Positions 26,350-45,862 of a stretch of 63,362 nt of DNA are shown piece after piece; the first letter of the stretch is position 1; the number at the start of each line of letters is the position of its first letter. Origin of the DNA: Accumulibacter sp. (GTDB taxonomy: Bacteria; Pseudomonadota; Gammaproteobacteria; Burkholderiales; Rhodocyclaceae). A program made the position numbers and the translations under genes. The stretch covers positions 1-63,362 of the forward strand of contig JACKLW010000020.1 of assembly GCA_024235715.1 (NCBI GenBank). Direction: 5' to 3'. Under the pieces are notes generated by a model. It was not told the origin of the DNA and did no database searches. It worked only from the letters and a program-made list of their open reading frames with translations.

Positions 26350-26427
26350 TGGTTTCTCTTTTTCTCTCCGCCATGTTCGGTACGCGACAAGTCGCAGAGC
26401 CATTGCATGGTTCTTGCATCCGGGCCC

Positions 26428-28898: not shown

Positions 28899-29220
28899 GA
28901 CTATTTTCTCCGTTCAATGGTGGAGCGCTTGTCGGCAGTTAAAGTCAAACGCCGCAGCTAGACGACTGGGGACGTCCATCGACACCGAAACGCTCCTATG
29001 TTGCATTTCTCCTCGCGCGCAACCCGGATATCGTCGCTGCGGCGAAGAAAAGACAGCCAAGCAACCGGCGCCGCATGTGCCATGGCGTACAGTTGTCAAG
29101 AGAAGCTGTATATCAATCTAGACCTGTGTGTACCTGAGAGGTCAAGCCAAATCTTGGTCATTGGTCGCAATGTCTGAGCGCAAGCTTTGAGCAATCTGGC
29201 CACCCGACGCCGGTCGATGA
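28899..29220. other. 322-bp intergenic region upstream of phaC
   Basis: It holds the MerR-type promoter at 29115-29145 and an approximately 215-bp untranslated stretch before phaC, unusually long. I see no gene. The first 20 bp before phaC include GGAGAAAATAG, a plausible ribosome-binding site (minus strand). Confidence 0.6.
29115..29145 (-). promoter_or_regulatory. MerR/CueR-type promoter upstream of phaC
   Basis: On the minus strand the sequence reads TTGACC (29140-29145), 19 bp, then TAGATT (29115-29120). The spacer ends ACACACAGGTC, the same right arm as the copA promoter at 37132-37162. The overlong spacer and the partial dyad (GACCTCTCAG...CAGGTC) are the marks of MerR-family control. 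Confidence 0.75.
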
Positions 29221-30360
29221 TCATAGCCAACGACGCGTTATCCAGCCGACACACTCCAGCAGGCGCTGCGGCCAACGTCGTTGAGCCCAGCTTCCGGCCG
29301 TGACCGGTCGAGATTGCGACAGGTCATCGAGAAACTCTTGTTCGAGTTGGGTGCAAACGCTGGGTTGGTCTACGGCCAGGACCAGCTCGTAGTTCAGGAA
29401 GAAGCTCCGGTAATCAAAATTTGCGGTACCAAGAGCGGCCCACTTCCCGTCGATCACGATTGTTTTCGCATGCAGCATGCGCGGCCGGTACTCGTAGACG
29501 CGCACCCCGGCGGCGATAAGCGCCGCGTAAAACGCACGCGCTGCCCAGCGCACCAACGGGACGTCGTTTCGCAGCGGGACGAGTAGCCGTACGTCGACCC
29601 CACGCCGCGCCGCCATCGTCAGACGCTGCTGCATGAGCAGGTCGGGAACGAAATAGGGAGTGGTCAGGTAGATGTGCTCACGCGCTCCTGAGAAGGCCTC
29701 CGAGTAGAGGCAGCGGACGCGGTGTCTACATGTGCTGGTGTGGTTCGAGATCAGGCTGGAGCCGCCGCCATGTGTCGGCGCCCAGCGGTATTGGCCGCGC
29801 CAGAATGCGTCGAAAAGTCCCGCCGCGTCGAGCACGAGCACTCCCGAGATCGAGGCGTGGGTGTCGCGCCATCGTGTCTCGCCGTAGAACCGGCGCGAAC
29901 TCTCGCGGTGAATGTTGAAGCCCCCGACATAGGCGAGTCGGTCATCGACCACCAACAATTTGCGGTGGTTGCGACGGTTGTAGCGCAGCGGTCGGAGCCA
30001 GTTCCAGCGGTGAAACCACTGCACCTGCACGCCTCGCTGGAGAACATACTGCACGAGCGGCGGCGTGGACTCGCCGAACGCCCCTGCTGCATCCAGGTGC
30101 AGCCTCACATCTACGCCCGCCTGCGCGCGCTCGGCCAACGCCACGGCGAACTCCCAGCCGATCTCATCGCCCGCGAAGATGTAGCTTTCCATGCGTACAA
30201 TCCGGCAGGCTCTCTTGATCGACGCGAGCATTGCCGCGTAGAGCACGTCGCCTTCGATGAATAGCACGACCTGCATCGGGGCGGCCGGCGGCGCTGAGGC
30301 GTCGCCGGCGGGATCGACGTGGCACGCGCACGGGGCGGCAGCGCGGGAATTCGGGCTCAC
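29221..30360 (-). CDS. phospholipase D-family protein, cardiolipin synthase-like (ClsB type)
   Basis: A 379-residue PLD-superfamily enzyme with two HKD motifs: NHRKLLVVDD (His132, Lys134, Asp139) and LHAKTIVIDG (His297, Lys299, Asp304). Length and order match ClsB, a cardiolipin synthase without N-terminal membrane helices. An N-terminal Cys/Ala-rich tail (PCACHVDP) is unusual. Predicted role: remodelling of membrane phospholipid. It is transcribed toward phaC but separated from it by the 322-bp region. Substrate inferred from family. Confidence 0.88.
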   Translation of the reverse strand: MSPNSRAAAPCACHVDPAGDASAPPAAPMQVVLFIEGDVLYAAMLASIKRACRIVRMESYIFAGDEIGWEFAVALAERAQAGVDVRLHLDAAGAFGESTPPLVQYVLQRGVQVQWFHRWNWLRPLRYNRRNHRKLLVVDDRLAYVGGFNIHRESSRRFYGETRWRDTHASISGVLVLDAAGLFDAFWRGQYRWAPTHGGGSSLISNHTSTCRHRVRCLYSEAFSGAREHIYLTTPYFVPDLLMQQRLTMAARRGVDVRLLVPLRNDVPLVRWAARAFYAALIAAGVRVYEYRPRMLHAKTIVIDGKWAALGTANFDYRSFFLNYELVLAVDQPSVCTQLEQEFLDDLSQSRPVTAGSWAQRRWPQRLLECVGWITRRWL

Positions 30361-30523
30361 GGCTTCCGCTGCTTGTAGGAGTACGGTTTCCCGAGTGTCG
30401 CCGTGACGGCGATGTTACTGCGTGTCACGCAATCGATTTTAGTTCTCAACGGGAAGCCCCAGAAGGACCTCGGGAACCTCATCGCCGGCTCTCCACTCTC
30501 GCCTTGGCGGATCCTGCGGACGC

Positions 30524-31240
30524 TTACTTGACCGGCGCTGGAGCCTCGGCAAGCTTCTGCTCGATCCTTGTCTGCGGAATGGCGCCGGCAATGCGCTCAC
30601 CGTCCGCAAAGAAAATCGTCGGCGTGCCGCTGACGGCCAAACTACGGCCCAGTTCGATACTTTTCTTGACGGCCGTGGTATCGCAATCGCCCTTGCCGTT
30701 CGGCGCCTTGCCATCGAGCATCCACTCGTTCCATGCTTTCGCCCGGTCTGCCGAACACCAGATCCGGTTTGACTTGTCGAGCGAATCCGGCGAGAGAATC
30801 GGGTAGAGAAAAGTGTAGATGGTCACGTCGTCCAGCCTGGCGGTCTCCTTGGCCAAGCGCTTGCAGTAGCCGCAGTTCGGATCCTCGAAGGTCGCAAAAA
30901 CACGCTTGCCATCGCCGCGCACCTGCTTGACGGCGAGCGCCAGGGGCAAGTCAGAGAACTCTATTGCGCTGAGTTTCTGCAGCCGCTCGGCAGTTACGTT
31001 TTTCATCGTCTCGCCATCGATCAGCGAGCCGACGAGCAGCACCGAAACCTTCTCGTCGGTGTAGATGACCTCCCGGCCATTGGCGTAGACCTCATAGAGC
31101 CCGAGATAGGGGGTCCTGGTGACGCTGGTGACTGTACCTCCGAGCCTGGCTTCAACCGCCTTCTTCACGGAGGCCTCGTCGGCCAGAGTCGGCACGCTGA
31201 ATGCGGCGGCGAGGGCAAGCGATACGAGTTTCCTGTACAT
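30524..31240 (-). CDS. dsbC: DsbC-family periplasmic disulfide isomerase
   Basis: A 238-residue periplasmic protein, starting at MYRKLVSLAL after GGAGAAAACAG. It has a signal peptide (about 1-20), an N-terminal dimerisation domain and a thioredoxin domain with Cys123-G-Y-Cys126 and the cis-Pro loop SGTPTIFF near 210. A second cysteine pair (WCS...GDCD) is also present as in DsbC. Copper causes wrong disulfides, so isomerase cargo fits the theme. No DsbD partner is encoded nearby; it would have to come from the host. Confidence 0.9.
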   Translation of the reverse strand: MYRKLVSLALAAAFSVPTLADEASVKKAVEARLGGTVTSVTRTPYLGLYEVYANGREVIYTDEKVSVLLVGSLIDGETMKNVTAERLQKLSAIEFSDLPLALAVKQVRGDGKRVFATFEDPNCGYCKRLAKETARLDDVTIYTFLYPILSPDSLDKSNRIWCSADRAKAWNEWMLDGKAPNGKGDCDTTAVKKSIELGRSLAVSGTPTIFFADGERIAGAIPQTRIEQKLAEAPAPVK

Positions 31241-31410
31241 CTGTTTTCTCCGGATCGAGAGTGGTTTACGTTTCAGTAAAGCTTGATGGGGTACCGCAGC
31301 ACAGCCTTCTTTAGCACTGACTCGGCGCTCGCCAACGTCGGGATTTTTGCCGTGTGGCCTCGTTTTCCGGCGATGACGAGTCCTGCGCGCTTGCGTCCAG
31401 CCACGAAGAA

Positions 31411-32091
31411 TCAACCATGCGTCGCAGGTCCTGTCAGAGGTTCGGTCGGACGTTTCTTGCCCGCACACACATAGATGGCGCCAAAGTAGTATTCCTTGTA
31501 TTCGGTTTGCCTCAAATGCCGTCCGATAGACTCCCAGGGATGGCGATCGGCCAAGTCCAGGCTCACCCCAAATGGTTTGTTCAACCACACGGCGAGTTTG
31601 ATCAACCATGTCGGCCAATGCTCAGGTTCCTTCATATCCAGGATCGCCAGAGTTCCCCCTGGCCTCAAGGCACCGCTCGCCCTCTCGATGATCGCCTCGT
31701 ACTCGGGCACCAACGTAATGGCAAACATTGAATACACAGCCGACACACCGACAGGAAACTGCCATTCGGCAAGGTCAGCCTGCACGATTTCCACGTTCGT
31801 CCAGTGCTCTCTGGCGACTCGACATCTGGCGACATCCAGCATCGCATCCGTGAGGTCTACAGCAACAATCTTTCCCTTGGGACCGATGATCCGCTGCACG
31901 TACTCAAAATTGAGCCCTGTCCCGCAGCCCAATTCAACAACCTGGTCGCCGGGAGCAAGGCCAAGTGCCGAGATCGCGTCCTGTCGGTAGCGATCCATCT
32001 CGAATCCAAAAAGCCGATAGAGCTGGATCGACAAGTCATATCGTTTCGCGCGTCGGCGATAGAGATTCCGCGTTTCATCCTTGTTGAGCAT
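31411..32091 (-). CDS. class I SAM-dependent methyltransferase (UbiE-like)
   Basis: A 226-residue methyltransferase starting MLNKDETRNLYRRRAKRYD. The SAM motif VVELGCGTGLNFEYVQ (about 49-64) is followed by VAVDLTDAML and LAILDMKEPE. The N-terminal region and R-R-x-A-x-R-Y-D pattern resemble UbiE/COQ5 or phospholipid N-methyltransferases. Its C-terminus mentions KEYYFGAIYVCAG. It is the last gene of the run starting with copA, 85 bp behind a YHS protein. Substrate unknown; a membrane lipid or quinone is a reasonable guess. Confidence 0.85.
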   Translation of the reverse strand: MLNKDETRNLYRRRAKRYDLSIQLYRLFGFEMDRYRQDAISALGLAPGDQVVELGCGTGLNFEYVQRIIGPKGKIVAVDLTDAMLDVARCRVAREHWTNVEIVQADLAEWQFPVGVSAVYSMFAITLVPEYEAIIERASGALRPGGTLAILDMKEPEHWPTWLIKLAVWLNKPFGVSLDLADRHPWESIGRHLRQTEYKEYYFGAIYVCAGKKRPTEPLTGPATHG

Positions 32092-32176
32092 CAGCGCATC
32101 TTCCAGCCAATTTGGCGCCCGGCAAGGCGGTAGCAAACAGGTGCCGCCACAGCCGAGACCGCGCCGCCATCGACGC

Positions 32177-32359
32177 TCACTGCAGATAGCGCTCCGGATC
32201 GCGCTCGAACTCCGCCTGGCAAATCGGGCAACAAAGCAAGTATTCGTTTTCTTTGTACTGAAGGGTGATGTGGGCCTTGTTGCGGTTGATGCGCTTGCCG
32301 CAGACTGGATCGCGGTCTTCACGTTTTTTCGGTGTCGTCTTGGTGTTTTCCCTGTTCAT
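32177..32359 (-). CDS. YHS-domain mini-protein (copy 1)
   Basis: A 60-residue soluble protein. ATG 32357-32359 follows AAGGAGAAAGTA, better than an in-frame ATG 21 nt upstream. It consists of a Lys-rich start and one YHS-like domain: DPVCGKRINRNKAHI then YLLCCPICQAEFERDPERY. Three Cys plus the DPVCGK motif suggest metal binding, probably copper. A close relative (about two-thirds identical) is encoded at 42139-42321. It lies in the copA run. Confidence 0.85.
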   Translation of the reverse strand: MNRENTKTTPKKREDRDPVCGKRINRNKAHITLQYKENEYLLCCPICQAEFERDPERYLQ

Positions 32360-32460
32360 TACTTTCTCCTTGCGTTGCATTGAAATGGGTGCCTGAAGCC
32401 GCCATGACTTGGGTGTTGTGGCGATGGTGCCTTATTCGGGTGTCGCGCCATCGGGGTTGC

Positions 32461-33588
32461 TTAGCCGGCAGCCAGCAAGTGCCGCTGCGCCCAGGGCAGC
32501 AGCAGGCGTCGCAGGTGCGACGGTCCATAGAGCCAGCGAAGAAACGTCGTGGTGTCGCTGATCCGCGCTTGCGCGCGCAGGAGCCAGCGATAACCATGAT
32601 TGCCGAGGCGGTCGTAGATCACACGATTCAGCGCGGCTGTGTCGATCGGGCCTTTCATCTCTCGCTGCCATGAGGCGTCGTAGTCCGTATGTTCCAGCAT
32701 GCTGCGCGCCGCCATCACGCCCGACAGGATCGCGTAGCGCATGCCGAAACCGGCAAACGCGTCCTGAAATCCGGCCTGCTCGCCGGCCACCAGGTGGTGG
32801 CCACGGCGGGCGGTTGTCGGCACGAAGAAACTGCCCGCGCCGCCGTGGAAGCGCGCATCGCGCATCTCGAAACCGAGCAGACGGCGGAAGCGATCGACGG
32901 TTCGCTGGACGTAAGTTCGTTGCTCGGTAAAACCCCTGAACATGCAGCTCTTGACCGTGCCACGACCAGCCATCACGAGCAGATAGGCGTAGCCACCCGG
33001 CGCGAGTGCATCGTCGAGGACCAACCAGAAGCCGTCTGCGAGAGATGTCTCGAAGTGGTACCCCACCGCGATGGCGCTGGCCGAGTGCGGACCGGTGGCC
33101 AGAATACCCGCGCCGGACAAGTGATCCTTGCGACTGCCGAAATGCACCTCGACCCCCAGCGAGAGAGCCTGATCGAGTAGCGTCCGGTCGAGGCTGCCGT
33201 AGTCCGGGCCACGTTCCACGAGGTAGCAGATCGGCTCTGAACTGCACAGAGGGTAGCGGCGGTCCCAGGCATCGAAGCCGATACCGTGGGTGCAGGGCGC
33301 CGTCGCGAAATCGGTCGTGATGCCAGCAGCCCGCAGAACATCGAGCACGTTGCGCTTGCCAGACCAGTTTTCAAGGCCCTGGAGATCACCTTGGAAGCGA
33401 TGGCCGACCTCACGCTGAGCCTCATGCAAGAGCACCTGCTTTCCGCTGCGAGCGAGCGTGATCGCAGCGGAAAGACCGGCGGGCCCTGCCCCGACCACCT
33501 CGATAGGAGCGAACTCATCGCGTATCGTGGCAATCCTTCTGGAGCTTGCGTTCTTGGTCATTCGGGAGTGCTCTTCGTCAGGTGGCAT
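32461..33588 (-). CDS. FAD-dependent oxidoreductase, geranylgeranyl-reductase-like
   Basis: A 375-residue flavoprotein. The dinucleotide fold IEVVGAGPAGLSAAITLARSG (GxGxxG, about 29-34) and the GILATG motif near 163 identify a GR2-type FAD enzyme. The C-terminus contains GEQAGFQDAFAGFGMRYAIL, typical of geranylgeranyl reductase/FixC relatives. An alternative ATG at 33561 is preceded by GAAGAG, so the true start may be 9 codons later. It lies in the copA run between YHS proteins. The substrate could be an isoprenoid or quinone-like lipid; not provable here. Confidence 0.82.
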   Translation of the reverse strand: MPPDEEHSRMTKNASSRRIATIRDEFAPIEVVGAGPAGLSAAITLARSGKQVLLHEAQREVGHRFQGDLQGLENWSGKRNVLDVLRAAGITTDFATAPCTHGIGFDAWDRRYPLCSSEPICYLVERGPDYGSLDRTLLDQALSLGVEVHFGSRKDHLSGAGILATGPHSASAIAVGYHFETSLADGFWLVLDDALAPGGYAYLLVMAGRGTVKSCMFRGFTEQRTYVQRTVDRFRRLLGFEMRDARFHGGAGSFFVPTTARRGHHLVAGEQAGFQDAFAGFGMRYAILSGVMAARSMLEHTDYDASWQREMKGPIDTAALNRVIYDRLGNHGYRWLLRAQARISDTTTFLRWLYGPSHLRRLLLPWAQRHLLAAG

Positions 33589-33620
33589 ACGCGTTTGCTG
33601 GTTGTCGAAGAGCGCCTCGT

Positions 33621-34001
33621 TCAGCAGCAGCCACCACGCCGGCGACCTGGTTCTGCCGGTTGCGCTGCCTGCACAGTCGGAAACTGCTCGGGCGCAGCCT
33701 CGAATCGATCGCGGTTCTCGCGCGACTCAAAATAGACGGGGGCGCCCCGATGGATCGAGGCGATGGCCTGGAGCGGATCCACCGAGCGGCCGCTGACCGG
33801 GTCTGTGGCTGGCAGCGTCGCTCCGGTCGTTGCGTCGCCGTGACTGCCATGAACATTGGCATCATGCTGACCCGCGTGTCCTGCGCCGCGATGATGACTC
33901 CCACCAGCGTGGCCTCCGCAGCCCATTCCGCTCCGCCGCATGAGCATGAAAATGCCGATGCCGAAGACGATCAACAACCAGTTTTGAGTTATCCATTCCA
34001 T
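33621..34001 (-). CDS. small membrane protein with His/Gly linker and YHS-like domain
   Basis: A 126-residue protein: one N-terminal helix (about 6-21), then a Gly/His-rich linker (G-C-G-G-H-A-G-G-S-H-H), then a YHS-like domain. In the latter DPVSGR replaces DPVCGM, so the usual Cys is lost. The chain ends in RRRGGCC, a terminal Cys pair. Good AAAGGAGAAACAC site. The N-terminal part resembles DUF2933. Its layout suggests a membrane-tethered metal buffer in the copA run. Confidence 0.78.
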   Translation of the reverse strand: MEWITQNWLLIVFGIGIFMLMRRSGMGCGGHAGGSHHRGAGHAGQHDANVHGSHGDATTGATLPATDPVSGRSVDPLQAIASIHRGAPVYFESRENRDRFEAAPEQFPTVQAAQPAEPGRRRGGCC

Positions 34002-34176
34002 GTGTTTCTCCTTTGCATTGGTTCGGATGGCAAATGCGTTCTGGGACTATTCCGTTATCTATTCGCAGTCGCGGCCATGATTTGCGGCGCCCCACAGGCC
34101 GATGATCTCAGGCGGAGGAAGCCTGCGGCGAGGAACCTGTCGAGGCAGAAAAGTAGTCAGTGGGGTCGGTAAGTCA

Positions 34177-34665
34177 TCAGTGACATCCTGCGGGTGGGCT
34201 AGCCTCCAGGTTGCCGATCTCACACTCTTCGGTGTAATGGATGAACCCGCGGCGCAAATTTTCTCCCCAGCCGTTGCCGAGGTGTGCCCCGGCTTTCTCC
34301 AGTGCCGCTTCGATTTGCGAAGCGGTAGCCTGCAGCAGATCGTAGGTCACCACGACTTCCGCGCCATTCACTTGCAAAGATTCAATGCCCATCATTGCGT
34401 TGATCTGTGCTTGCAAGTGCTTTGCCTGAGCCGCATCGAGCACCCCATCCACGACAAACCGTCGTTGCTTCAACACAACCAGTCCCTGTTTTTTCGGCGC
34501 TGGATGACCTGGCTTGCCGACATACAAGTGCGGATGGGCCTCGAAACGCTCGATACATTGCGCCGAGCAGAACGCATAGTCACTTCCCTGATAGCGGAAG
34601 CGATAACTATCTGGCTCGACCATCATGCCGCACACCACGTCTTCTACTTTGGTTTCTGTTGGCAT
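34177..34665 (-). CDS. YHS + heavy-metal-associated (HMA-like) domain protein
   Basis: A 162-residue soluble protein starting MPTETKVED after GAGGGAGCAAG. Residues 8-50 form a YHS domain (VVCGMMVEPDSYRFRYQG...YAFCSAQCIERFEAHP, in parts). Residues 65-130 form a ferredoxin-like HMA-type fold without a CxxC pair (VVDGVLDAAQAKHLQ..IESLQVNGAEVVVTYD). The C-terminus contains an EEC..EIGN..AGCH stretch with Cys and His. It starts 17 bp after the copA stop, so it is coupled to the ATPase and could be its metallochaperone. Confidence 0.82.
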   Translation of the reverse strand: MPTETKVEDVVCGMMVEPDSYRFRYQGSDYAFCSAQCIERFEAHPHLYVGKPGHPAPKKQGLVVLKQRRFVVDGVLDAAQAKHLQAQINAMMGIESLQVNGAEVVVTYDLLQATASQIEAALEKAGAHLGNGWGENLRRGFIHYTEECEIGNLEASPPAGCH

Positions 34666-34681
34666 CACTTGCTCCCTCAAG

Positions 34682-37102
34682 TCAGATGGAGATCCTGCGC
34701 AGCCGCAAGGCGTTGCTGATCACCGAGATCGACGACAGACTCATCGCTGCGGCGGCAAAGATGGGTGAGATGAGAATGCCCAGGAAGGGATACAGGATGC
34801 CCGCAGCGACCGGCACCCCCGCGGCGTTGTAGACCAGGGCGAAGAACAGGTTCTGCCTGATATTGCGCATGGTCGCGCGCGCCAGACGCCGCGCCCGCAC
34901 GATGCCGTTCAGATCTCCCTTGACCAGCGTGAAGCCGGCGCTCTCGATGGCCACGTCGGCGCCGGTACCCATGGCAATGCCGACGTCGGCCTGCGCCAGA
35001 GCCGGCGCATCATTGACGCCGTCGCCGGCCATCGCCACCTTGCAGCCTTGGGCCTGCAATTCCTTGATGATGCGCGCCTTGTCCGCGGGTAGCACGTCGG
35101 CGCGGATTTCATCGATGCCCAGACGGCCAGCGACGGCGCGCGCCGTGCGCTCGTTGTCGCCGGTGGCCATGATGATCTTCAGGCCCTCGGCATGCAGCGC
35201 CTTGAGCGCTTCGAGCGTGGTCGCCTTGACGGGATCGGCGACGCTCACCAGGCCGGCGATTTCGCTGCCGATGAGGACGAACATCACCGTCTCTCCTTCG
35301 TCACGGCGAGCGTTTGCCGCCTCGACGAACGCACTGGACGCGCCGCCCTCCAGGCCCAGTTCGGTGAGCAGCGCCGCATTGCCCAAGGCAACAGCCTGGC
35401 CATCGACCACGCCCTTAACGCCCTTGCCGGTGATCGCCTGGAACTCGTCGGCATTGGCCAGTTCCACGCCGCGCTCTTCGGCGCCGCTGACGATCGCCTC
35501 GGCCAAAGGGTGTTCGGAACCGCGTTCGAGGCTGGCGGCAAGGCGCAGTACCTCGGCTTCCTCGTGTCCGGCGGCGGGCAGCACCGCGACCAGCTTTGGC
35601 TTACCGACGGTCAGCGTCCCGGTCTTGTCGACGATCAGGGTATCGACCTTCGCAAAACGTTCGAGGGCCTCGGCGTTCTTGATCAGCACGCCTGCCTGCG
35701 CACCGCGTCCGGTGGCGGTCATGATCGACATCGGCGTCGCCAGGCCGAGCGCACAAGGGCAGGCGATGATCAGGACAGCGACGGCCGCGACCAGTCCATA
35801 GGAAAGTGCCGGCGCAGGTCCCCAGATCGCCCAGGCGATGAAGGCCAGGATGGCGATGCCGATCACCGCTGGAACGAACTTTCCGGCGACCGAGTCGGCG
35901 AGCTTCTGGATCGGGGCACGCGAGCGTTGCGCATTGGCGACCATGTCGACGATCTGGCTGAGCACCGTGTCACCGCCGACCCGCTTCGCTTCGACGATCA
36001 GCGAGCCGGTGCCATTGATAGTCGCCCCGGTGACGGCGTCACCAGCGACCTTTTCAACGGGCACAGCTTCACCCGAAATCATCGACTCGTCGATCGACGA
36101 ACGGCCTTCGATTACCAGGCCATCCACCGGCACCTTGTCGCCCGGCCGCACCCGCACATGGTCGCCGACGACGACTTCCTCGAGCGGTATTTCCTCCTCA
36201 CGCCCGTCGGCACGGATCACGCGTGCTGTTTTGGCGGCGAGATCGAGCAGCGCGCGGATCGCCGAACCGGTACGCTCGCGCGCGCCTAGTTCCATCACCT
36301 GGCCGAGCAGGACCAGGACGATGATCACCGCGCCGGCCTCGAAGTAGACTCCGACGTGTCCCTGCGCATCGCGGAAGCCAGCCGGGAACAAGCCCGGCGC
36401 CAGGAGCGCGACGACGCTAAAAAGATACGCTGCGCCGACGCCCAGGCCGATCAGCGTGAACATGTTCAGGCTGCGATTGACCACAGACTTGACGCCGCGA
36501 ACGAAGAAAGGCCAGCCGGCCCAGAGCACTACCGGTGTTGCCAGAAGAAATTCGATCCACAGTGCGGTGCGCTCGCCGAGCGCGTCGCGTACGAAGCCGA
36601 GCCCGAGGAAGGGGCCCATGGTCAGCACCAGCAGCGGCACGGTCAGCACAGCGCCGATCGAGAAACGGCGCCGGAAATCGACCAGTTCGGGGTTGGGGCC
36701 TTCGTCGCCTGTGGGGACGCCCATCGGCTCCAACGCCATGCCGCATTTCGGGCAATCGCCGGGGGCGTCGCGAACGATTTCCGGGTGCATCGGGCAGGTA
36801 TATTGCGTGCCTGCAGGCACGGAAGGCGCTTGTTTCTTGTGCGCGCCTGTGAGGTAGTGTGCAGGATCCGCGGCGAACTTGTCGCGGCACTTCTGCGAAC
36901 AGAAGTGCCAGGTTTTTCTGTCGTGTTTGAAGCTCGGCTTGCCCGTCCCAAGAGCGACGGACATGCCGCATACCGGATCCTTCACCGTCGTGACCTCGGC
37001 TGCCGCCTGGTCGCAGTGAGAGCCGTGCGATCCATGTGCGCTGTGAGAATGCTCGGGGTGATGATGGTGGTCTTGCCCGGCCGACCTTGCACTCGTGTTC
37101 AT
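34682..37102 (-). CDS. copA: Cu(I)/Ag(I) P1B-ATPase with N-terminal YHS and HMBD domains
   Basis: An 806-residue inner-membrane copper/silver ATPase. After a His-rich leader there is a YHS domain (DPVCGM, Cys45) and a heavy-metal-binding domain (YTCPMHPE...[12 protein letters not shown], Cys103, 117, 120). No CxxC HMA domain is present. Core motifs are CPC (448-450), DKTGT (Asp492), SEHPLAE and GDGVNDAP. This layout matches SilP/CopF-type pumps. The start follows TTGGAGAGGATTGCC. It is led by a MerR-type promoter at 37132-37162 and heads a seven-gene run on the minus strand. Confidence 0.95.
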
Positions 37103-37131
37103 GGCAATCCTCTCCAAGTAATATGGCTTCC

Positions 37132-37162
37132 AGCCTAGACCTGTGTGTTGCTCACAGGTCAA
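37132..37162 (-). promoter_or_regulatory. CueR-type promoter of copA
   Basis: On the minus strand TTGACC (37157-37162), a 19-bp spacer, then TAGGCT (37132-37137). The dyad ACCTGTG...CACAGGT (37139-37159) spans the spacer, as in CueR/CupR promoters. Start codon 30 bp downstream. The regulator is probably the MerR protein at 45859-46287. Confidence 0.9.
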
Positions 37163-37173
37163 GCATTATTTCT

Positions 37174-37332
37174 TCAAGGCGCGACGGCCAGTTGATGTCC
37201 CTCGCCGGCGGGTAACTGAATGGTGTCCAGGAACTCCAGCGAGCTTTGGTTCACCACACAGATCTTCGGTTCCTTGCGGCTGGCGACGTAGAGCTTGCCA
37301 GTGCCGCACACTGCACCGAGGTGATACGGCGC
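37174..37332 (-). pseudogene. 3' fragment of YncE-like beta-propeller gene
   Basis: The last about 50 codons of a gene closely related to the propeller at 42629-43618, with the same stop position relative to the copA promoter. It reads ...HQLAVAP before TGA. The rest is missing; similarity ends at about 37332. Confidence 0.75.
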
Positions 37333-38053
37333 AGCCGTAATCTGGTCACCCGGATCGGCAATATCGAATTACGCGTCCCGAGGGATCTCTGCAGCCTGTC
37401 GGGTGTTGAATTCGTCGTCTCCGACAGCCATGCCTTGCCTGCCGTCCTTTGGGGTGCCTGCCATAACTTGCGCATGATCCTCAGAGCCATCCGGCTTGGT
37501 TTCGTCTTTCTCCTGACTGAACTCTTGGGGCTTTACTCTCTCAACAAAGCGAAAATCCCAGACCCGCTTCAACCGTAGGCTCTTTGAAGTGCGTTGTTCA
37601 GGAGCGACTCGGTACCAAACGTCGTAAGTTGACGCGCCGGCGACGATGGCGCCGATATAGTGCTTCATTTCGCCGATTTCCTTGCGCTGGGCGGCGATGC
37701 CGTCGGCGAACCCGCGTACGCTCGGGTCGGTTCGCTGGTCAGTAGGGCAATCGAGTGGTGCGTGATCATCACCCGCATCTGCGAAACATCGTCAACTGCC
37801 CATTTACCAGTCGATACGATGCTTGCCCTCGGTCTCCTTGTGTCGATGCCGTTGGCGCCTACAACGCCTGGCCGACAGAAAGGTAATGTTTTGGTCACCT
37901 TTCTGTCGGTGTTCGGCAACTACCATAGCGCCAACATTAGGCGACAAGTTCAGTTTGGCAACATTGACGGCATTTGCAGCGCGAAGGTAATCGGCAACCG
38001 AAGTTCGCAAAGATTTGCATACCACTTCGTAAGAAAACCGAGAGGAAAATGAA
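37333..38053. other. gene-poor remnant region
   Basis: About 720 bp between the propeller fragment and the small gene at 38054. Apart from the DUF305 remnant (37620-37800) no readable family is found. The frame downstream of that remnant (to 37369 on the minus strand) is charged and unrecognised. The stretch 37870-38040 is AT-richer than the rest of the window and may hold the promoter of the 38054 gene. Confidence 0.5.
37620..37800 (-). pseudogene. frameshifted DUF305-like protein remnant
   Basis: Two adjacent frames give the halves of a DUF305-type sequence. The first is VSQMRVMITHHSIALLTSE (about 37731-37790). The second, after a shift at about 37710-37731, is FADGIAAQRKEIGEMKHYI (about 37650-37710). 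The HH and Q-x-x-E-I-x-x-M pattern is characteristic. DUF305 proteins are periplasmic, ferritin-like and common in copper clusters. There is no start codon or signal peptide, so it is dead. Confidence 0.6.
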
Positions 38054-38263
38054 ATGAAACGCAACCTGGATCAATACGTGGGGAAAATCGTTCGTCTGAA
38101 CCGGCCCGTTTTTCAGGAAATCTCGGGTCGTTCAAAGTACCAGGGCATGGCTATCGAGAATCGCTTCCTGGTTTCGGAAATCAGTCACAAGATGCGCCAA
38201 CTGATCTGCTACGGAGGGCAGCTGCGCGTCCTTGTAGGCCCGTCCGATGTGGTGCTGATCTGA
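38054..38263 (+). CDS. small conserved-looking hypothetical protein
   Basis: A 69-residue basic protein (MKRNLDQYVGKIVRLNRPVF...). The start at ATG 38054 follows GAGAGGAAAATGAA. The sequence alternates hydrophobic and charged residues, suggesting a compact beta-barrel such as an SH3- or Sm-like fold. Residues FLVSEISHKMRQLICYGG and a VLVGPSDVVLI ending are distinctive. I do not recognise a family. It is alone on the plus strand, is followed by a hairpin terminator, and faces the M48 protease gene. Confidence 0.6.
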   Translation: MKRNLDQYVGKIVRLNRPVFQEISGRSKYQGMAIENRFLVSEISHKMRQLICYGGQLRVLVGPSDVVLI

Positions 38264-38288
38264 TTTTCTGCATTGAGAAAACCCTCTC

Positions 38289-38306
38289 AAGGCCGCTCGC
38301 GGCCTT
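38289..38306. terminator. hairpin between convergent genes
   Basis: AAGGCCGC-TC-GCGGCCTT forms an 8-bp perfect stem with a tight loop, 26 bp after the 38054 gene and 50 bp after the end of the convergent M48 gene. No long T-run follows, so efficiency is uncertain. Confidence 0.5.
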
Positions 38307-38355
38307 GCCGCAAATCGGCAATTGCAGGGTAAGCCTGCTCAAGACGCGTTTATCT

Positions 38356-40320: not shown

Positions 40321-40350
40321 CGCTGAAGTAGACGGATCAAGAAATCGCGC

Positions 40351-40953
40351 TCAGAACGACACCGTCGGCGCCGCCTGGATGGCCGCGCTGTCTTCGAATT
40401 CAAGCAGTGCTGCATCTTGCGCGTGGCCGAACATGGCGGCGAAAAAAACCGGCGGGAAAGTTTGCTTGAAGACGTTGTAGGCCATCACCTGGTCGTTGAA
40501 TGCCTGGCGGGCGAAAGCGACCTTGTTTTCGGTGCTCGTCAATTCCTCGCTGACCTGCATCATGTTCTGACTGGCCTTGAGGTCGGGATAGGCTTCCATC
40601 ACCATCTTCATGTTCATCATCGCGCCTGAGAGGCGGTTTTCGGCGCCCATCAGACCCGTCATCGCAGCAGCGTCACCGGGGGCCGCTGCCGCGCGGGCCA
40701 GGCTACCAGAAGCTTCGTTGCGTGCCGAAATCACCGATTCGAGCGTTTCGCGTTCGTGCTTGAGGTATCCCTTGGCCGTCTCGACCAGATTGGGAATCAG
40801 GTCGTAGCGCCGCTTGAGCTGCACTTCGATCTGCGCGAAGGCGTTCTTGTAGCGGTTCTTGAGCGTCACCAGCTTGTTGAAGATTGAGATCAAATAAAAA
40901 ACGCTGAGTGCGATTAGCACCACGATGCCGATGATGACCTGTGTCGTATTCAT
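40351..40953 (-). CDS. lemA: LemA family protein
   Basis: A 200-residue protein with one N-terminal helix (about 5-27) and a long helical domain. The signature FNKLVTLKNRYKNAFAQIEVQ and KRRYDLIPNLVETAKGYLKHE identifies LemA. LemA proteins are membrane-anchored with a periplasmic or cytoplasmic helical bundle of unclear function, often paired with an M48 protease as here. The pair is a self-contained module within the copper region. Confidence 0.92.
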   Translation of the reverse strand: MNTTQVIIGIVVLIALSVFYLISIFNKLVTLKNRYKNAFAQIEVQLKRRYDLIPNLVETAKGYLKHERETLESVISARNEASGSLARAAAAPGDAAAMTGLMGAENRLSGAMMNMKMVMEAYPDLKASQNMMQVSEELTSTENKVAFARQAFNDQVMAYNVFKQTFPPVFFAAMFGHAQDAALLEFEDSAAIQAAPTVSF

Positions 40954-41059
40954 TTTTTGCCCTTGGCGTTGATGGCCGGTGATCGCAATCCGGATTGCGC
41001 CTCAATGCGCCTTGATCCGGGTGCGGGTTGAAAGTGCATGGCGCCGTGTACTCCTCATC

Positions 41060-42112
41060 TCATTGCATGCGCCGAACGGCTTGAGTGGCACGCGCTGGGA
41101 AAGGCGCGGCAGACTCGGTACGGACCTTGAACATCGCCCGCATCACAGCCAGCAGAATCAACGCCACGCCACCAGCCTGCAAGGCACCCAGACGTTCGTC
41201 AAAGCTGGCCATCGCGGCGAAAAGCCCGAGCACCGGCACGAGAAACAAATACAAGGACAGGCGACCGGCCTCCGCCCTTTGCAGAAGCCAGAACCAAAGC
41301 CAGGTGCTCAATGCCGTTCCGGCCAGCGCCAGGATGAGCAGAATGCCGACGAAAGTGCCCGTCCAGACGATGCCTTGCGACACTTCGAAGGACAGTGACA
41401 CGGCGAACAGCAAGCCACCGCCGACGACCAACTGCCAGGCGATCAGCGACATCAGATCTTCGCCCGGTCGCAGGCGCTTCATGATCACGCTGGCGACGGC
41501 GGCACTGAACGCCGAGCCAAGCGCCAGGACGATCCCGAATAAATCGCTGCCGCCGGGCTGGCGCCAGGCAGGGAGTGCCAGCAAGCTGACGCCGGCCAGT
41601 CCGAACAGCAAGGCTGCCGCTTTGCTCAGACTGATTCGTTCGCCGAGGAAAAGCGCTGCCAGCACGATGATGATCAGCGGCTGCGTATTGCCCAGCACCG
41701 CGGCGAGGCCGGCACCGATGTAGGCCGGGCCGGCAAACATCGTCCCGACGGTCAGCGTCGTCGCCAGGACGCCGAGCGGCAAAATCCATCGGGCCAGGCT
41801 TGCCCGCGGCCACAGCCGCTTGCGTCGGATCACTAACACGAGCACCAGGGTGAGGCCGCCGAGGATGGTGCGCAGCGCCGCAAAATGCAGCGGCGGCGCG
41901 AATGCCAGGCCCACCTTAATCAGCGGATAACAGATCGCCATCGACACGATAACGACCAGCATCAACCACGCCTGCTTGCCGTGGGATAGGGTGCCTGCCC
42001 CGACCAGATCCGGTGCCCGCTCTTGCCGCGAGTCGCCGGAGGGCATCGCCCGGTTCATGGGATGTCGGGTCTCGCCATGAGCGTTATTGCCAGCGGTGTC
42101 ATAGGCGTCCAT
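41060..42112 (-). CDS. EamA/DMT-superfamily transporter
   Basis: A membrane protein of about 350 residues with ten predicted helices in two EamA repeats (first repeat from WLMLVVIVSMAICYPLIKVG, second from FGIVLALGSAFSAAVASVIM). The start is uncertain: ATG 42112 (MDAYDTAGNNAHG) or ATG 42058 (MNRAMPSGD); neither has a strong ribosome-binding site. The N-terminal part before the first helix is hydrophilic. Substrate unknown; relatives export metabolites or amino acids. It lies 26 bp downstream of the YHS protein gene and may be coupled to it. Confidence 0.85.
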   Translation of the reverse strand: MDAYDTAGNNAHGETRHPMNRAMPSGDSRQERAPDLVGAGTLSHGKQAWLMLVVIVSMAICYPLIKVGLAFAPPLHFAALRTILGGLTLVLVLVIRRKRLWPRASLARWILPLGVLATTLTVGTMFAGPAYIGAGLAAVLGNTQPLIIIVLAALFLGERISLSKAAALLFGLAGVSLLALPAWRQPGGSDLFGIVLALGSAFSAAVASVIMKRLRPGEDLMSLIAWQLVVGGGLLFAVSLSFEVSQGIVWTGTFVGILLILALAGTALSTWLWFWLLQRAEAGRLSLYLFLVPVLGLFAAMASFDERLGALQAGGVALILLAVMRAMFKVRTESAAPFPARATQAVRRMQ

Positions 42113-42138
42113 CGAGAGCGTACGACACCGGCTGCGCC

Positions 42139-42321
42139 TCAGTGCGCGTACTTCGCCGGATCGCGCTCGAACTCCGCCTGGCACAAGGGGCAGCAAAGCA
42201 GGTATTGCCGGCCTTCGTGCTCGACGACGATATGCGCCTTATTGCGGTTGATGTGTTTGCCGCACACCGGGTCTTTGTCGTCGCGCTTCCTGCCGGCTAC
42301 GGCAGAGGCTGCCTTGTTCAT
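42139..42321 (-). CDS. YHS-domain mini-protein (copy 2)
   Basis: A 60-residue relative of the protein at 32177-32359, with DPVCGKHINRNKAHI then YLLCCPLCQAEFERDPAKY. All cysteines are conserved. A good AGGAGAAAGACA site precedes it. It is first of a two-gene unit with the DMT transporter. The two copies suggest duplication of a copper-module element. Confidence 0.85.
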   Translation of the reverse strand: MNKAASAVAGRKRDDKDPVCGKHINRNKAHIVVEHEGRQYLLCCPLCQAEFERDPAKYAH

Positions 42322-42628
42322 TGTCTTTCTCCTTGCTTGAGTTTAAAAAATCGCGGTAAATCGCATGCATCCGCGTGCCGCAACGGCTAAGCTATCTTGG
42401 CTCCGCCGACGCCCTTACAGCCTTGCCGTCGGGCTCGCCCGGCGTCTTATCCGGCGTTGAGCCATGCCGGTGTCCGCCATGCGTGCCGCAACACATTCCG
42501 CCGCACCGCATGAGCAGAAAAGCTGCGATACCGACGTCGGCCTTGCCCTCGTGTTCATGGCAATCCTCTCCAGATTGATATGGCTTCCAGCTCGGACCTG
42601 TGTTGCTCACAGGTCAAGCGCGATTTGC
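42322..42628. other. remnant region with copA 5' end fused to a DUF2933-like fragment
   Basis: On the minus strand the copA-like start ATG (42556-42558, MNTRA) runs after a few codons into a different frame. That frame encodes IAAFLLMRCGGMCCGTHGG, the helix and Cys/Gly/His linker of a DUF2933-like protein. No complete gene remains. The damaged promoter lies at about 42593-42617. Confidence 0.6.
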
Positions 42629-42786
42629 TCAAGGAACGATTGCCAGTTGATGTCCCTCGCCACCGGGTAACTGGATGGTGTCCAGCAACTCCAGCGAGCT
42701 CTGGTCCACCACCCAGATCTTCGGTTCCTTGCGGCTGGAGACGTAGAGCTTGCCAGTGCCGCGCACCGTACCGAGGTGATACGGCG
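42541..42786. repeat. duplicated segment: copA start/promoter plus propeller tail (copy B)
   Basis: It aligns with 37085-37332. Here the propeller gene is intact while copA is reduced to its first codons. Confidence 0.85.
42593..42617 (-). promoter_or_regulatory. damaged CueR-type promoter with 2-bp shorter spacer
   Basis: TTGACC (42612-42617) is followed by TGTGAGCAACACAGGTC. Compared with the copA promoter it lacks one CA, which makes the spacer 17 bp to the same position; the hexamer there is CGAGCT. The TAGGCT hexamer is also lost. The promoter is probably no longer MerR-controlled. Confidence 0.6.
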
Positions 42787-43618
42787 CGGGCGCGAGTGGC
42801 AAGACGCGGCGCACATCGGTCTGCGGATCAAGTGCCACCAGCTTGTCTTCGGAGATCAGGCTGACGAACAACTGGCGGCCGTCATCGCTGATGTCCAGCC
42901 CGTGCAGGCGCTTGCCCATCGCGTACTCGCGCTCGACCTTGCCGGTCTCGAGCGAGACAGCGCTGACCGTTCCGCTGCGCGCGTTGGCGACGTACAGCCG
43001 CTGGCCATCGGGGGCCAGCAGCATGTGCTCGGGTGAGGCACCGGCGTCCAGGGTGCGCGTGACTTTCCAGTCGGCGGTGTCGATCTCGCTGATCGTGCCA
43101 TTGCCGCTGTTACTGACGTAAACGCGCTTGCCATCTGGGGTCACCACGGCGTAGTTCGGCGCCGGGCCGGTGGCGACGGTGTGGACGACCTTGTTCTCGA
43201 TCAGATCGGTAACGCTGATGCCGCCGCGTGTGGGATGCGTAGACAGCACGTAGCGACCATCTGGAGTGATCGCCTGATGGTGCGTCCAGCCGGCCACCGG
43301 GATGGTCGACATGACGTGGCCGTGCGCCGGATGAATCACCGCCAGCTTGCTGTTTGCCGTATCCACTGACGCGCCCTGCGGCAGTGGTGTCTCCGACAAG
43401 CTGCCGGCGACAAGGTATTCGCCATCCGGGGTGGCGACCAGGCCGTGCGGATTGTCGACGCCGTCGTAGGTGGCAGTGATGCGATTACTCGCCGCGTCGA
43501 CGGCGATGACCTTGTTGGCGGAGCCGAGAGGGATGTACACGGTCATGCCGGCCCAGGCCGTTTGTGCGGAGAGGGCAATGATGATGGCCGTCGCGGCCAG
43601 GCTCGAGTAGCTTTTCAT
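42629..43618 (-). CDS. YncE-like periplasmic beta-propeller protein
   Basis: A 329-residue secreted seven-bladed propeller. The signal peptide covers about 1-23 (ending AWA). Repeats of the type TPDGxYVL..., T-P-D-G-K-R-V-Y-V-S-N and A-P-D-G-Q-R-L-Y-V-A-N appear at about 45-residue spacing. These are the YVTN/YncE repeats. Such proteins accompany c-type cytochromes and may bind metal or DNA or act as scaffolds. It is last of the run from the HD-GYP gene, 78 bp after the cytochrome. Confidence 0.88.
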   Translation of the reverse strand: MKSYSSLAATAIIIALSAQTAWAGMTVYIPLGSANKVIAVDAASNRITATYDGVDNPHGLVATPDGEYLVAGSLSETPLPQGASVDTANSKLAVIHPAHGHVMSTIPVAGWTHHQAITPDGRYVLSTHPTRGGISVTDLIENKVVHTVATGPAPNYAVVTPDGKRVYVSNSGNGTISEIDTADWKVTRTLDAGASPEHMLLAPDGQRLYVANARSGTVSAVSLETGKVEREYAMGKRLHGLDISDDGRQLFVSLISEDKLVALDPQTDVRRVLPLAPAPYHLGTVRGTGKLYVSSRKEPKIWVVDQSSLELLDTIQLPGGEGHQLAIVP

Positions 43619-43696
43619 GTTGAAGTCCCTTCGTGAAAGAGTTGGTCCGGGTTGGTTCCGGCGCGATGGTTGAGGACGTCTGGCGTGCTCGATTGC

Positions 43697-44035
43697 TCAG
43701 CGGACACCAAACTCCTTGCGCATGTAGTCCACTACTGCCTTCAGGTCCTCGTCGCTCAGGGTCGGGTTGCCTCCCCGCGGCGGCATCGCCATCGGCGAGC
43801 CGGGGCTCTGAAAGCCGTCGGCGACACGCTTGACCAGCAGTTCGTCAGCAAGCGCAAGCGGGCCATCCGTGGTCGTCAGGTCGGGGACGCCGGGCAGTAC
43901 GCCGACGCCATCCGCACCATGGCAGGCGACGCAGCTGGATTGATAGGTCGATTCGCCCGTCGCATCGGCTGCCCCAGCGTCACCGGCCACGATCGCGCCC
44001 AGCGTTGTCAGCAGGCTGATCGTGACGCGCCTCAT
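43697..44035 (-). CDS. class I c-type cytochrome
   Basis: A 112-residue periplasmic monoheme cytochrome, starting at ATG 44033-44035 ([14 protein letters not shown]) after GGCGAGGAACAACC. The signal peptide ends near residue 25 (AGA or GAA). The heme motif CVACH is at about 37-41, and the distal Met is in [10 protein letters not shown] near 86. The start overlaps the methyltransferase stop by 4 nt. It is an electron carrier of unknown partner, between an ICMT-like enzyme and a propeller. Confidence 0.9.
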
Positions 44036-44712
44036 GGTTGTTCCTCGCCTTTCCATCGGGGTGAGGAGACGCCGGCGCCAGATGCCCAGCGTGGCCAGAA
44101 AGCCGGGGTGCGCTCCGCGTAAGACGCCCATGCTTCGCCAAAGCTTGCTGCCGCGTCGCGTTCCTCGCGGCGTGCGAGTCGCAGGTAGACCACGACCATG
44201 ATCGGGAACATCGTCAAGGTGATCAGCGTCGGCCATTGCAGCAGAAAGCCGACCATGATCAGGATGAAACCGAGATACTGCGGATGGCGTAGCCTTGCGT
44301 AGGGCCCGGCAGTGGCGAGGGTGCCGCTCGCCTGAGCCGCGTAGAGCACCCGCCAGGCCCTTGCCAGTAGCCAGAAACCGCCACCGATGAAGACCGTCGA
44401 CAGCAGGTGGAATGGCCCGAAATGCGGGTTCGATCGCCAGCCGAACATCACCTCCAGCAGGTGGCCCGAGTCGTGTCCGAGGAAGTCGACACCGGGAAAC
44501 TGCTTCGTCAACCAGCCCGACAGCAGGTAGATCGTCAGCGGGAAGCCGTACATCTCGGTGAACAGGGCGACGACAAACGCCGAAAACATGCCCAGCGTGC
44601 GCCAGTCGCGCTCGCTGCGCGGCTTGAAGAAGCTGAAGGCGAAGAAGATGAACACCGCCGAGTTGATCACCACCATCGACCACAGGCCGTAGGAGGAGGA
44701 TGGGTCGTTCAT
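44032..44712 (-). CDS. ICMT/PEMT-like integral membrane methyltransferase
   Basis: A 226-residue protein with about five membrane helices. The C-terminal part [20 protein letters not shown] (about 148-167) and [12 protein letters not shown] near 190 match the isoprenylcysteine carboxyl methyltransferase / phospholipid methyltransferase fold (SAM-binding R-H-P-x-Y). Both ends overlap the neighbouring genes by 4 nt. Substrate unknown in bacteria; lipid or a small molecule. It is found in copper-linked operons together with DUF2933 proteins. Confidence 0.85.
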
Positions 44713-45038
44713 TTGTCATCCGCCTTGTTCGATGAGCCGCCGTGGTTGCTGTTGTTGCCGTGACCGCCGTGGCCACCGTGCATGAAGACGTGCATCAACG
44801 GACAGGCCAGCAGGAACAGCCAGGGCCACCAGGCAGGCAACCAGCCAAGCAGGTGGCTACGGTGCTCGACGACGAGGAGAACCAGCGAGATGGCGGCGAA
44901 GCCGCCGAACACCCACCAGGAGCGTCGGCTGGCCCTGTCGCCGGAGGGGTTGCGCGACGTTTCGCTTGCAGAATGGTCATGCGTATTCACAGTTGGCTCC
45001 TCGGCGGGTAAATCGACTTCGTTCGTGGTCTTGCTCAT
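44709..45038 (-). CDS. DUF2933 small membrane protein
   Basis: A 109-residue protein starting MSKTTNEVD. Two helices (about 42-58 and 66-85) are separated by a short turn (RSHLLGWLP). The C-terminus is [19 protein letters not shown], a His/Gly tail that can bind metal. DUF2933 proteins of this kind recur with copper ATPases and YHS domains. Its start overlaps the HD-GYP stop (ATGA) and its stop overlaps the methyltransferase start. Confidence 0.82.
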
Positions 45039-45799
45039 GGCAGCACAGCGGTGCCGCATTTGAGCGCCACCATCTTTTTCAGCGTTGTTTCTTCCTGCAT
45101 AAAGGCTTCGACAGCGAGTGGATCGAACTGGCTGCCACTCATCCGACGGATCTCCCTCGCCGCCGTGTCGAAATCGACACCACGCCGGTAAGGACGGTGG
45201 GAAGTCATCGCATCCAGCGTGTCGATCACGGCAAACAGCCGCGCGCCAAGTGGAATCTCGTTGCCACGCAGTCCTGCCGGGTAGCCACTACCGTCGTAGC
45301 GCTCTTCGTGACAGAGGACGATCTGCGCGGCTTCGCCAAAGCCGGCGAGGGGCGCCAGAATGCGTTGGCCCTCCTCCGGATGGGTGCGCATCACGGCCCA
45401 CTCGGCCTCGTCGAGCGGACCCTCCTTGAGCAACACCGCATCCGGAACGCCGATCTTGCCCACGTCGTGCAGCAGCGCACCCCAATACACCTGGCGCAAG
45501 TGCTCCGGTTTGGAGATGAAACAACGCGCCAGCACGAGGGTGTGGCACGCCACTCGCTTGGAATGAAGGCCGGTTTCGTGCTCACGCAGGTCGAGGGCGG
45601 CGGCCAGTGCTTCGGCGAAGCCCTCGTAGGCCTGGACGGATGGGTGCGTGTCGCGCTTGCAGGTTTCCAGATAGCATGATTCGCAGCAGCGCCCCCCGTT
45701 CAGCTCAAGAGAGAGGCCAGCGAAGTTTGCACCGCAGCAGAGACACTGCCCTTTTGTCAGTCGCGGGTTGTCGCTATCGTTTTGTCGCGTCATATCCAT
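45035..45799 (-). CDS. HD-GYP domain protein with N-terminal cysteine finger
   Basis: A 254-residue cytosolic protein. Residues 19-47 hold seven Cys (GQCLCCG...GRCCESCYLETC), a zinc-ribbon-like or metal-sensing finger. Residues 60-240 are an HD-GYP phosphodiesterase domain: HDVGKIG (His111, Asp112), CHEERYDGSGYPAGL (163-177) and IDTLDAMTSHRPYR. The usual HHExxDGxGYP has Cys in place of the first His, one of the metal ligands. The family hydrolyses c-di-GMP. It is first of a five-gene overlapping run behind a MerR-type promoter. Confidence 0.88.
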   Translation of the reverse strand: MDMTRQNDSDNPRLTKGQCLCCGANFAGLSLELNGGRCCESCYLETCKRDTHPSVQAYEGFAEALAAALDLREHETGLHSKRVACHTLVLARCFISKPEHLRQVYWGALLHDVGKIGVPDAVLLKEGPLDEAEWAVMRTHPEEGQRILAPLAGFGEAAQIVLCHEERYDGSGYPAGLRGNEIPLGARLFAVIDTLDAMTSHRPYRRGVDFDTAAREIRRMSGSQFDPLAVEAFMQEETTLKKMVALKCGTAVLP

Positions 45800-45831
45800 G
45801 TGTCGGTTACCGTTTGGTTTTCGCAGAGGGC

Positions 45832-45862
45832 AGCGTGGGCCTGTGAGCTACTGATAGGTCAA
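45832..45862 (-). promoter_or_regulatory. MerR-type promoter of the HD-GYP operon
   Basis: On the minus strand TTGACC (45857-45862), 19 bp, then CACGCT (45832-45837). The spacer ends GCTCACAGGCC, similar to the right arm at copA. The -10 is weak, which is normal for activated promoters. It overlaps the last codons of the MerR gene itself, which points the same way. Confidence 0.7.

Follow-up and report, generated by a model that had tools for sequence, protein, structure and literature searches.

A MerR-type operator class linked to a distinct MerR subfamily points to a probable soft-metal regulon with copA, HD-GYP, Rieske and phaC genes in Candidatus Accumulibacter

We describe three putative promoter/operators of one class, together with the MerR-family regulator gene linked to that class (merR2), in a 63,362-nt stretch of Accumulibacter sp. 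DNA (contig JACKLW010000020.1 of assembly GCA_024235715.1; hereafter the window). This contig is numbered C20 in a 4.14-Mb genome (G000), and the closest named matches of its merR2 gene belong to Candidatus Accumulibacter. The sites stand before a copper ATPase gene (copA), an operon for an HD-GYP domain protein, and a unit encoding a polyhydroxyalkanoate (PHA) synthase (phaC), a Rieske protein and FabI. Judged from sequence, one unusual metal sensor on a mobile metal-resistance element of this wastewater bacterium probably switches on copper export, a spare respiratory Fe-S protein, a PHA synthase and a signalling enzyme together. We consider it likely that MerR2 is a soft-metal activator controlling the copA, HD-GYP and Rieske-phaC promoters through operators with an overlong 19-bp spacer. 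The broader proposal is more tentative, and we stop just short of calling it probable: MerR2 would represent an undescribed MerR subfamily with a dispersed soft-metal regulon (export, a dedicated Rieske protein and a cysteine-cluster HD-GYP protein), which in Accumulibacter would also hold a host phaC under a metal promoter.

An earlier note on this DNA had placed TTGACC, exactly 19 bp and a -10-like hexamer on the minus strand before all three genes, each with a CACAGG right arm, and every one of these features was confirmed at the positions in Table 1. The copA site reads TTGACCTGTGAGCAACACACAGGTC-TAGGCT, the phaC site TTGACCTCTCAGGTACACACAGGTC-TAGATT and the HD-GYP site TTGACCTATCAGTAGCTCACAGGCC-CACGCT. 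TTGACC and CACAGG are separated by 11 bp, the full inverted repeat of the arms occurs only at copA, and the merR2 stop codon falls within the TTGACC of the HD-GYP site. In the 4.14-Mb genome TTGACCTNTN8CACAGGY is matched exactly at three places, each within the window, and the reversed-pattern control has no match; with one mismatch allowed there are four more, among them the copA site read from the opposite strand. A weight matrix was trained on 33 of 47 distant loci (L007-L053; 32 unique 31-mers), with no window or Accumulibacter sequence; the other 14 loci were excluded as near-duplicates or because they had no site, or only a weak one, before merR2. As the training sites were picked by the motif, what the matrix tests is transfer to the window, not whether the motif exists. 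Under it the copA, phaC and HD-GYP sites come first in the window, in that order. All other positions score below 2 bits, except opposite-strand readings of the copA and phaC sites, and the best simulated score was 10.0 bits over 5 million positions, none of which reached the lowest of the three sites. These sites are genuine and not the product of chance. No ordinary sigma-70 promoter was detected in front of phaC. Between the operator and phaC (28900-29010, minus strand) lies a 30-codon frame with a strong ribosome-binding sequence, which is in frame with 29 codons in locus L093.

A further copy of the operator at 42617 (minus strand) sits in a duplicated yncE-end/copA-start segment. Its spacer of 17 bp is 2 bp shorter than that of the copA site, and it probably cannot be activated. 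The segment (yncE end, operator and copA start) occurs twice, at 42100-43620 and 37100-37300, and the copA start of the 42617 copy is broken.

The distribution of the operator was compared with that of MerR2 using a profile built from 15 proteins, with matches counted at E up to 1e-28 in 369 genomes of the class. The subfamily was found in 64 of them. The perfect-arm operator ACCTGTG-N7-CACAGGT occurs in 15 of the 369 (reversed control, 0): in 15 of the 64 genomes with a MerR2-subfamily gene and in 0 of the 305 others (Fisher p = 8.7e-13, the genomes being not fully independent). The distance from the 18 operator instances to a MerR2 gene is at most 1.5 kb in nine and at most 10 kb in 12; it is 23-29 kb in two, and the remaining four are on other contigs. 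Among the 47 distant loci, many of them near-identical, 44 carry a site scoring 12 bits or more from 400 bp before to 200 bp after merR2 (upstream in 42), a count that is not independent because 33 of these loci trained the matrix; no such site was found near merR2 in L015, L016 and L038. A copA gene was called downstream in 41 of the 47. In 150 relatives, the present genome included, a looser operator pattern occurs in five genomes, namely four Accumulibacter and G107 with one match. All four Accumulibacter genomes carry a MerR2 gene of at least 91% identity, and G022 has a second at 82%; three other genomes of the genus have only MerR matches of 36-42% and no operator site. Across genomes, the operator goes with a single MerR subfamily. 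Plasmid searches with MerR2, HD-GYP and PhaC found no similar cassette among the matches listed or opened; among those listed, MerR matches reached at most 48.5% and PhaC matches at most 56%, and a 70% HD-GYP match lay beside methanol-oxidation-type genes on an Azoarcus plasmid.

The earlier note had described the regulator beside the HD-GYP site as CueR-like. Its position stands, and the gene is on the minus strand with a GTG start; the label is wrong, since the protein lies under the CueR cut-off, has a different cysteine pattern and is linked to a different operator. MerR2 has the MerR helix-turn-helix and DNA-binding domains (PF13411, PF00376 and PF09278, above gathering scores), and the family's palindromic operator in a 19-20-bp spacer is seen here with 19 bp at all three sites, the palindrome being perfect at copA. 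Assignment to known equivalogs was rejected. The protein scores 77-78 bits against the curated CueR cut-off of 147.4, and 67.8, 85.5 and 85.5 bits against the cut-offs of 151.45, 167.95 and 150.85 for CadR/PbrR, ZntR and MerR. None of the NCBIfam models listed for it is matched at its cut-off, a comparison that covers, of the 15 subfamily members, the window protein. In an alignment of 50 rows, some from outside the subfamily, C77 is kept in 48 and so is C126. All 15 aligned members of the subfamily have W112, at a column where CueR and MerR1 carry cysteine. CueR has serine at the C77 column; C126 is present in MerR2, and W112 replaces the first cysteine of the CueR metal loop.

The residues CPC, YN-x4-P and M-x2-SS are the signature of Cu(I) P1B-1 ATPases. 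CopA2 of the window has all three (TIGR01511, 576 bits against a cut-off of 397), and because it is Cu(I)-type, copper or silver is the presumed signal of MerR2. A second regulator in the window, MerR1 (168-617), is CadR/PbrR-like by resemblance and has its own, different operator, TTGACCCTATAGTAACTTCAGGGTGT, at 618-648. In the MerR1 region (168-2969) the adjoining P-type ATPase has CPC without the other two Cu(I) signature motifs. Several genomes carry more than one MerR2-subfamily gene (four in G192, three in G459), which suggests duplicated or specialised sensors.

In other genera the operator was found again with merR-copA, Rieske and HD-GYP genes. Rieske genes have it upstream in G229 (22.7 bits), in G353 of the same genus (14.0 bits, ~400 bp away) and in G375 (29.2 bits), and in G307 it lies ahead of merR2-yncE-Rieske (38.8 bits). 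It also precedes cusC or cusCBA in G170 (31.6 bits), a YHS protein gene in G229, and genes labelled from appearance as porin-like (G204, G279) and as a methyltransferase (G206). Since the operator precedes Rieske genes in G229, G353 and G375 and an HD-GYP gene in G345, the HD-GYP and Rieske links recur outside Accumulibacter. These comparisons support one MerR subfamily serving several promoters: copA would be its constant target, Rieske genes repeated targets, HD-GYP a less frequent one, and phaC an addition made locally.

The HD-GYP protein of the window has an HD_5 match and the GYP motif, and relatives at E up to 1e-45 occur in seven of the 369 class genomes, its own included. In G345 a 55%-identical HD-GYP gene has a 13.3-bit operator ~80 bp upstream, with MerR2, CopA and NADb (an FAD/NAD(P)-binding oxidoreductase) on the same contig. 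At the five remaining relatives the matrix found no position above 3.4 bits in loci of 2.8-3.7 kb. Where 11-20 kb of context was inspected, metal-cluster genes lie near HD-GYP in four of five genomes: Rieske in G213 (at a contig end, adjoining HD-GYP), NADb and a cardiolipin synthase (Cls) in G444, CopA in G270, and NADb, CopA, YncE and MerR2 in G345. The context in G210 offers just a 42% YncE match, and that in G306 covers 3.5 kb. Five MerR2 loci of the genus were compared (the window, L003, L004, L005 and L006, with L003 and L004 near-identical). All three that have HD-GYP (the window, L003 and L004) also have its operator; in L005, which is without HD-GYP, the right arm is eroded, and L006 has neither the site nor the gene. 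A metal-ATPase-type domain at the HD-GYP N-terminus was considered and rejected, as the PF12156 match in G345 is sub-threshold (E = 0.029, 15.5 bits against 27) and the window protein has no match.

The Rieske protein of the window has the twin-arginine (TAT)/anchor domain and both [2Fe-2S] ligand boxes. Within the genus, island-type Rieske proteins (94-100% identity) were found only in G000 and G015, other matches listed being at most 59%. In a tree of 40 tips, 13 tips from metal loci or like them (11 distinct genes, two entered twice) were set against 27 top-scoring others. The island tips split from the others with an ultrafast bootstrap (UFBoot) value of 87, or 73 without L265, which is cut by a contig end. 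G407, G385 and G213 each have one Rieske gene on either side of the split; one of the 11 island-group genes, that of G334, lies on a 9.8-kb contig with no MerR2 gene. The tree lends moderate support to a separate island Rieske group.

Of the phaC/Rieske/FabI unit that the earlier note placed under possible metal control, the Rieske gene is the one that recurs elsewhere; the phaC link is local to Candidatus Accumulibacter, and FabI is present in the window unit and absent from that of the closest relative (L093). The window PHA synthase has PhaC_N and the Cys, Asp and His motifs, which form the catalytic triad of PHA synthases, and scores 492.6 bits against TIGR01838, under the cut-off of 622.65. 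A phaC match at E up to 1e-60 is found in all 28 genomes of the genus, the best copies being 80-94% identical, the window's own excepted. The operator-phaC arrangement occurs in two of these 28, G000 and G015. In nucleotide comparisons of loci with ~1.5 kb of flank where the contig allows, similarity to non-island phaC covers approximately the coding sequence (window ~28845 to 27053) and ends before the operator. The two island copies nest in a clade with six non-island copies (UFBoot 100). They are not sisters, the window's grouping with G018 (98) and that of G015 with G011 (97), so that either separate capture or recombination with host copies would be required. Comparison thus shows that the coding sequence of the island phaC was captured from the host lineage: the similarity is limited to that sequence, and the placement is in the host clade. 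The gene now stands between the operator and the Rieske gene. In G000, a genome 90.5% complete, the search at E up to 1e-60 gave no further phaC of this type. The chromosomal phaC of G015 (L133, G015:C7, ~7650-7710) has a frameshift in a G run, possibly through faulty assembly. That of G018, in which no island copy was found, is split too.

A second phaC type was observed with fabI in L270 (G013) and L272 (G019), apparently a separate phaC-fabI cassette, with pta/ack-like genes as well in G019. In G013 a 76% phaC with fabI lies beside a Cus system; in G019 a 76% phaC, FabI and genes labelled acetate-kinase-like from appearance lie near another resistance-nodulation-division (RND) system. Neither locus has the operator, so PHA genes beside efflux genes are not unique to the MerR2 regulon.

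For MerR regulators, metal-induced transcription from such operators is well established. In the mechanism we propose, MerR2 would sense a soft metal, most likely Cu(I) or Ag(I), and on binding it would untwist the operator DNA and so let polymerase use both promoter boxes, as in other MerR activators. MerR2 would then drive copA with envelope-repair genes (oxidoreductase, methyltransferase, dsbC and cardiolipin-synthase-like), the HD-GYP operon, and the Rieske operon, in which a host-lineage phaC copy would have been inserted directly behind the operator. Under metal stress, metal would be exported, a spare periplasm-facing Fe-S subunit supplied for the bc1 complex, cyclic di-GMP (c-di-GMP) lowered and PHA synthase added. 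We infer DNA binding, the metal, the activation mechanism, the catalytic activities, co-transcription and the physiology of the regulon from these comparisons, and likewise the benefit of HD-GYP and PHA synthase under metal. The suggestion of the earlier note that one sensor serves all three promoters agrees with one MerR protein and one operator class; its phaC part reduces to a local addition.

Several observations weigh against this proposal. The left arms of the phaC and HD-GYP sites are imperfect, and the -10 of the latter (CACGCT) is poor. Under the strict pattern, 49 of the 64 MerR2 genomes have no exact operator match. The operator precedes HD-GYP in just one of the six other class genomes with a relative, and the MerR2 loci of G192, G385 and G407 hold a Rieske gene with no operator immediately upstream. 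Only two genomes showed phaC behind the operator, and the identity of the G000 and G015 sites, in DNA that is itself 91% identical, makes their conservation weak evidence. As MerR2 is without the first CueR loop cysteine, copper is deduced from the neighbouring gene, and the signal could be another soft metal.

One alternative is compatible with control by MerR2 and seems to us somewhat unlikely: phaC and HD-GYP would be metal-responsive passengers, useless for tolerance, with phaC mainly replacing a lost chromosomal copy. The host-lineage origin of phaC, the failure to find a second such copy in G000, the frameshifted chromosomal gene of G015 and the phaC-fabI pairs without operator in L270 and L272 all fit this account. 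Against it, HD-GYP accompanies metal genes in four other genomes, and replacement of the chromosomal gene is weakened by the possible assembly error in a homopolymer, by the split copy in G018 and by the incompleteness of G000. We hold it improbable that copA alone is truly regulated and that the phaC and HD-GYP sites are decaying duplicates from within the element, with weak or constitutive expression. The sole perfect palindrome at copA, the decayed duplicate at 42617 and a leftover operator copy after M48 in L093 and L096 would agree with such decay, but the phaC and HD-GYP sites are unlike the copA site in spacer and flank sequence, retain a spacer length of 19 bp and have scores that far exceed chance, and G345 shows the HD-GYP link again. 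Use of the sites by another regulator (the CadR/PbrR-like MerR1, a two-component pair or a chromosomal MerR) is very improbable, for although the window holds several metal regulators, including two kinase/regulator pairs of which one has a CusS sensor domain, the operator TTGACCCTATAGTAACTTCAGGGTGT lies between MerR1 and its own P-type ATPase, and ACCTGTG-N7-CACAGGT tracks MerR2 in 15 of 15 class genomes.

Besides the features in Table 1, the window encodes two RND efflux systems, one with a CusF domain, two P-type ATPases, a CzcE-like protein, TrbE-, TrbI- and TrbL-like conjugation proteins, and two histidine-kinase/response-regulator pairs, in one of which the CusS sensor domain is above cut-off. 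Rfam and tRNA scans of the window gave no matches. A C-terminal CDCTWCRC cysteine tail is present in the NADb proteins of L173 (3718-4845) and L181 (17784-18932), and the window copy is without it.

Table 1. Predicted genes and putative promoter/operators of the proposed regulon (window coordinates)
Feature	Position	Strand	Remark
MerR2, regulator of distinct MerR subfamily, 142 aa, GTG start	45859..46287	-	C77 and C126 conserved in subfamily
HD-GYP operon MerR-type promoter/operator (putative), 19-bp spacer	45832..45862	-	16.8 bits; overlaps merR2 stop codon
HD-GYP domain protein, 254 aa, N-terminal cysteine cluster	45035..45799	-	domain match
DUF2933 protein	44709..45059	-	
ICMT/PEMT-like membrane methyltransferase	44032..44712	-	
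YncE-like beta-propeller protein	42629..43618	-	
Duplicate copA-type operator, 17-bp spacer	42587..42617	-	weight matrix -8.0 bits
copA MerR-type promoter/operator (putative), perfect ACCTGTG-N7-CACAGGT, 19-bp spacer	37132..37162	-	38.5 bits
CopA2, Cu(I)-type P-type ATPase; YHS and HMBD domains; CPC, YN-x4-P, M-x2-SS	34682..37102	-	
NADb, FAD/NAD(P)-binding oxidoreductase	32461..33588	-	recurrent neighbour of island Rieske and HD-GYP genes
S-adenosylmethionine (SAM) methyltransferase, UbiE-like	31411..32322	-	open reading frame limits mechanical
DsbC-like disulfide isomerase	30524..31618	-	open reading frame limits mechanical
PLD-type cardiolipin-synthase-like protein	29221..30360	-	under NCBIfam cut-off
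phaC-Rieske-fabI unit MerR-type promoter/operator (putative), 19-bp spacer	29115..29145	-	21.1 bits; identical in L093
PHA synthase, class I-like; copy of Accumulibacter phaC (coding sequence) acquired by capture, with undamaged catalytic motifs	27072..28898	-	
bc1-type Rieske protein, island-associated group; CTHLGC and CPCHGS	26428..27033	-	
FabI-like enoyl-ACP (acyl carrier protein) reductase	25516..26403	-	
Small membrane protein, weak LspA/PAP2 similarity, unit end	25113..25547	-	

If the proposal is true, the metal response would be broader than known for sensors of this kind, with one operator class on a mobile element serving genes for export, respiration, second-messenger turnover and storage. 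PHA, the storage polymer for which phosphorus-removing bacteria are known, would be tied to a metal signal, with the prediction that wastewater metals alter the c-di-GMP and PHA metabolism of these bacteria. The regulon would also offer a testable explanation of the way a periplasm-facing Fe-S protein is protected against copper in bacteria.

Among the papers listed in searches of open-access literature, no title or abstract opening mentions such an operator, nor a MerR-controlled phaC, Rieske or HD-GYP regulon. The pAM1A3 island of Alteromonas macleodii (PMC4781885) is alike in being mobile and in carrying merR, copA and cusRS, and belongs to a genus with MerR2 relatives; the passages concerned describe no such operator and no Rieske, HD-GYP or phaC regulon. 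Cupriavidus metallidurans CH34 (PMC2864759) is likewise a metal-resistant betaproteobacterium with MerR regulators and several phaC genes, and the passages concerned report no MerR-controlled phaC. CadR/PbrR, ZntR and MerR regulators resemble MerR2 in their domains and in the logic of a 19-20-bp spacer. The CadR/PbrR-like MerR1 shares the cysteine at the C77 column, whereas W112 of MerR2 replaces a cysteine of MerR1 and CueR. The CueR/HmrR regulons, in the parts of the account concerned (Permina et al. 2006, PMC1526738), are similar in having a MerR-family activator, a palindrome in a 19-bp spacer and copper-resistance targets; MerR metal regulons are there usually of few genes per genome, and additional CueR/HmrR targets, such as cytochromes, were predicted. 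The MerR, CueR, HmrR and ZntR operators given in those parts (PMC1526738) differ from that of MerR2, the CueR operator being ACCTTCCC-(5)-TGGAAGGT as against ACCTGTG-(7)-CACAGGT. MerR2 differs further from CueR in having C77 and C126 in place of the loop cysteine pair, and in targets that would include Rieske, HD-GYP and phaC genes.

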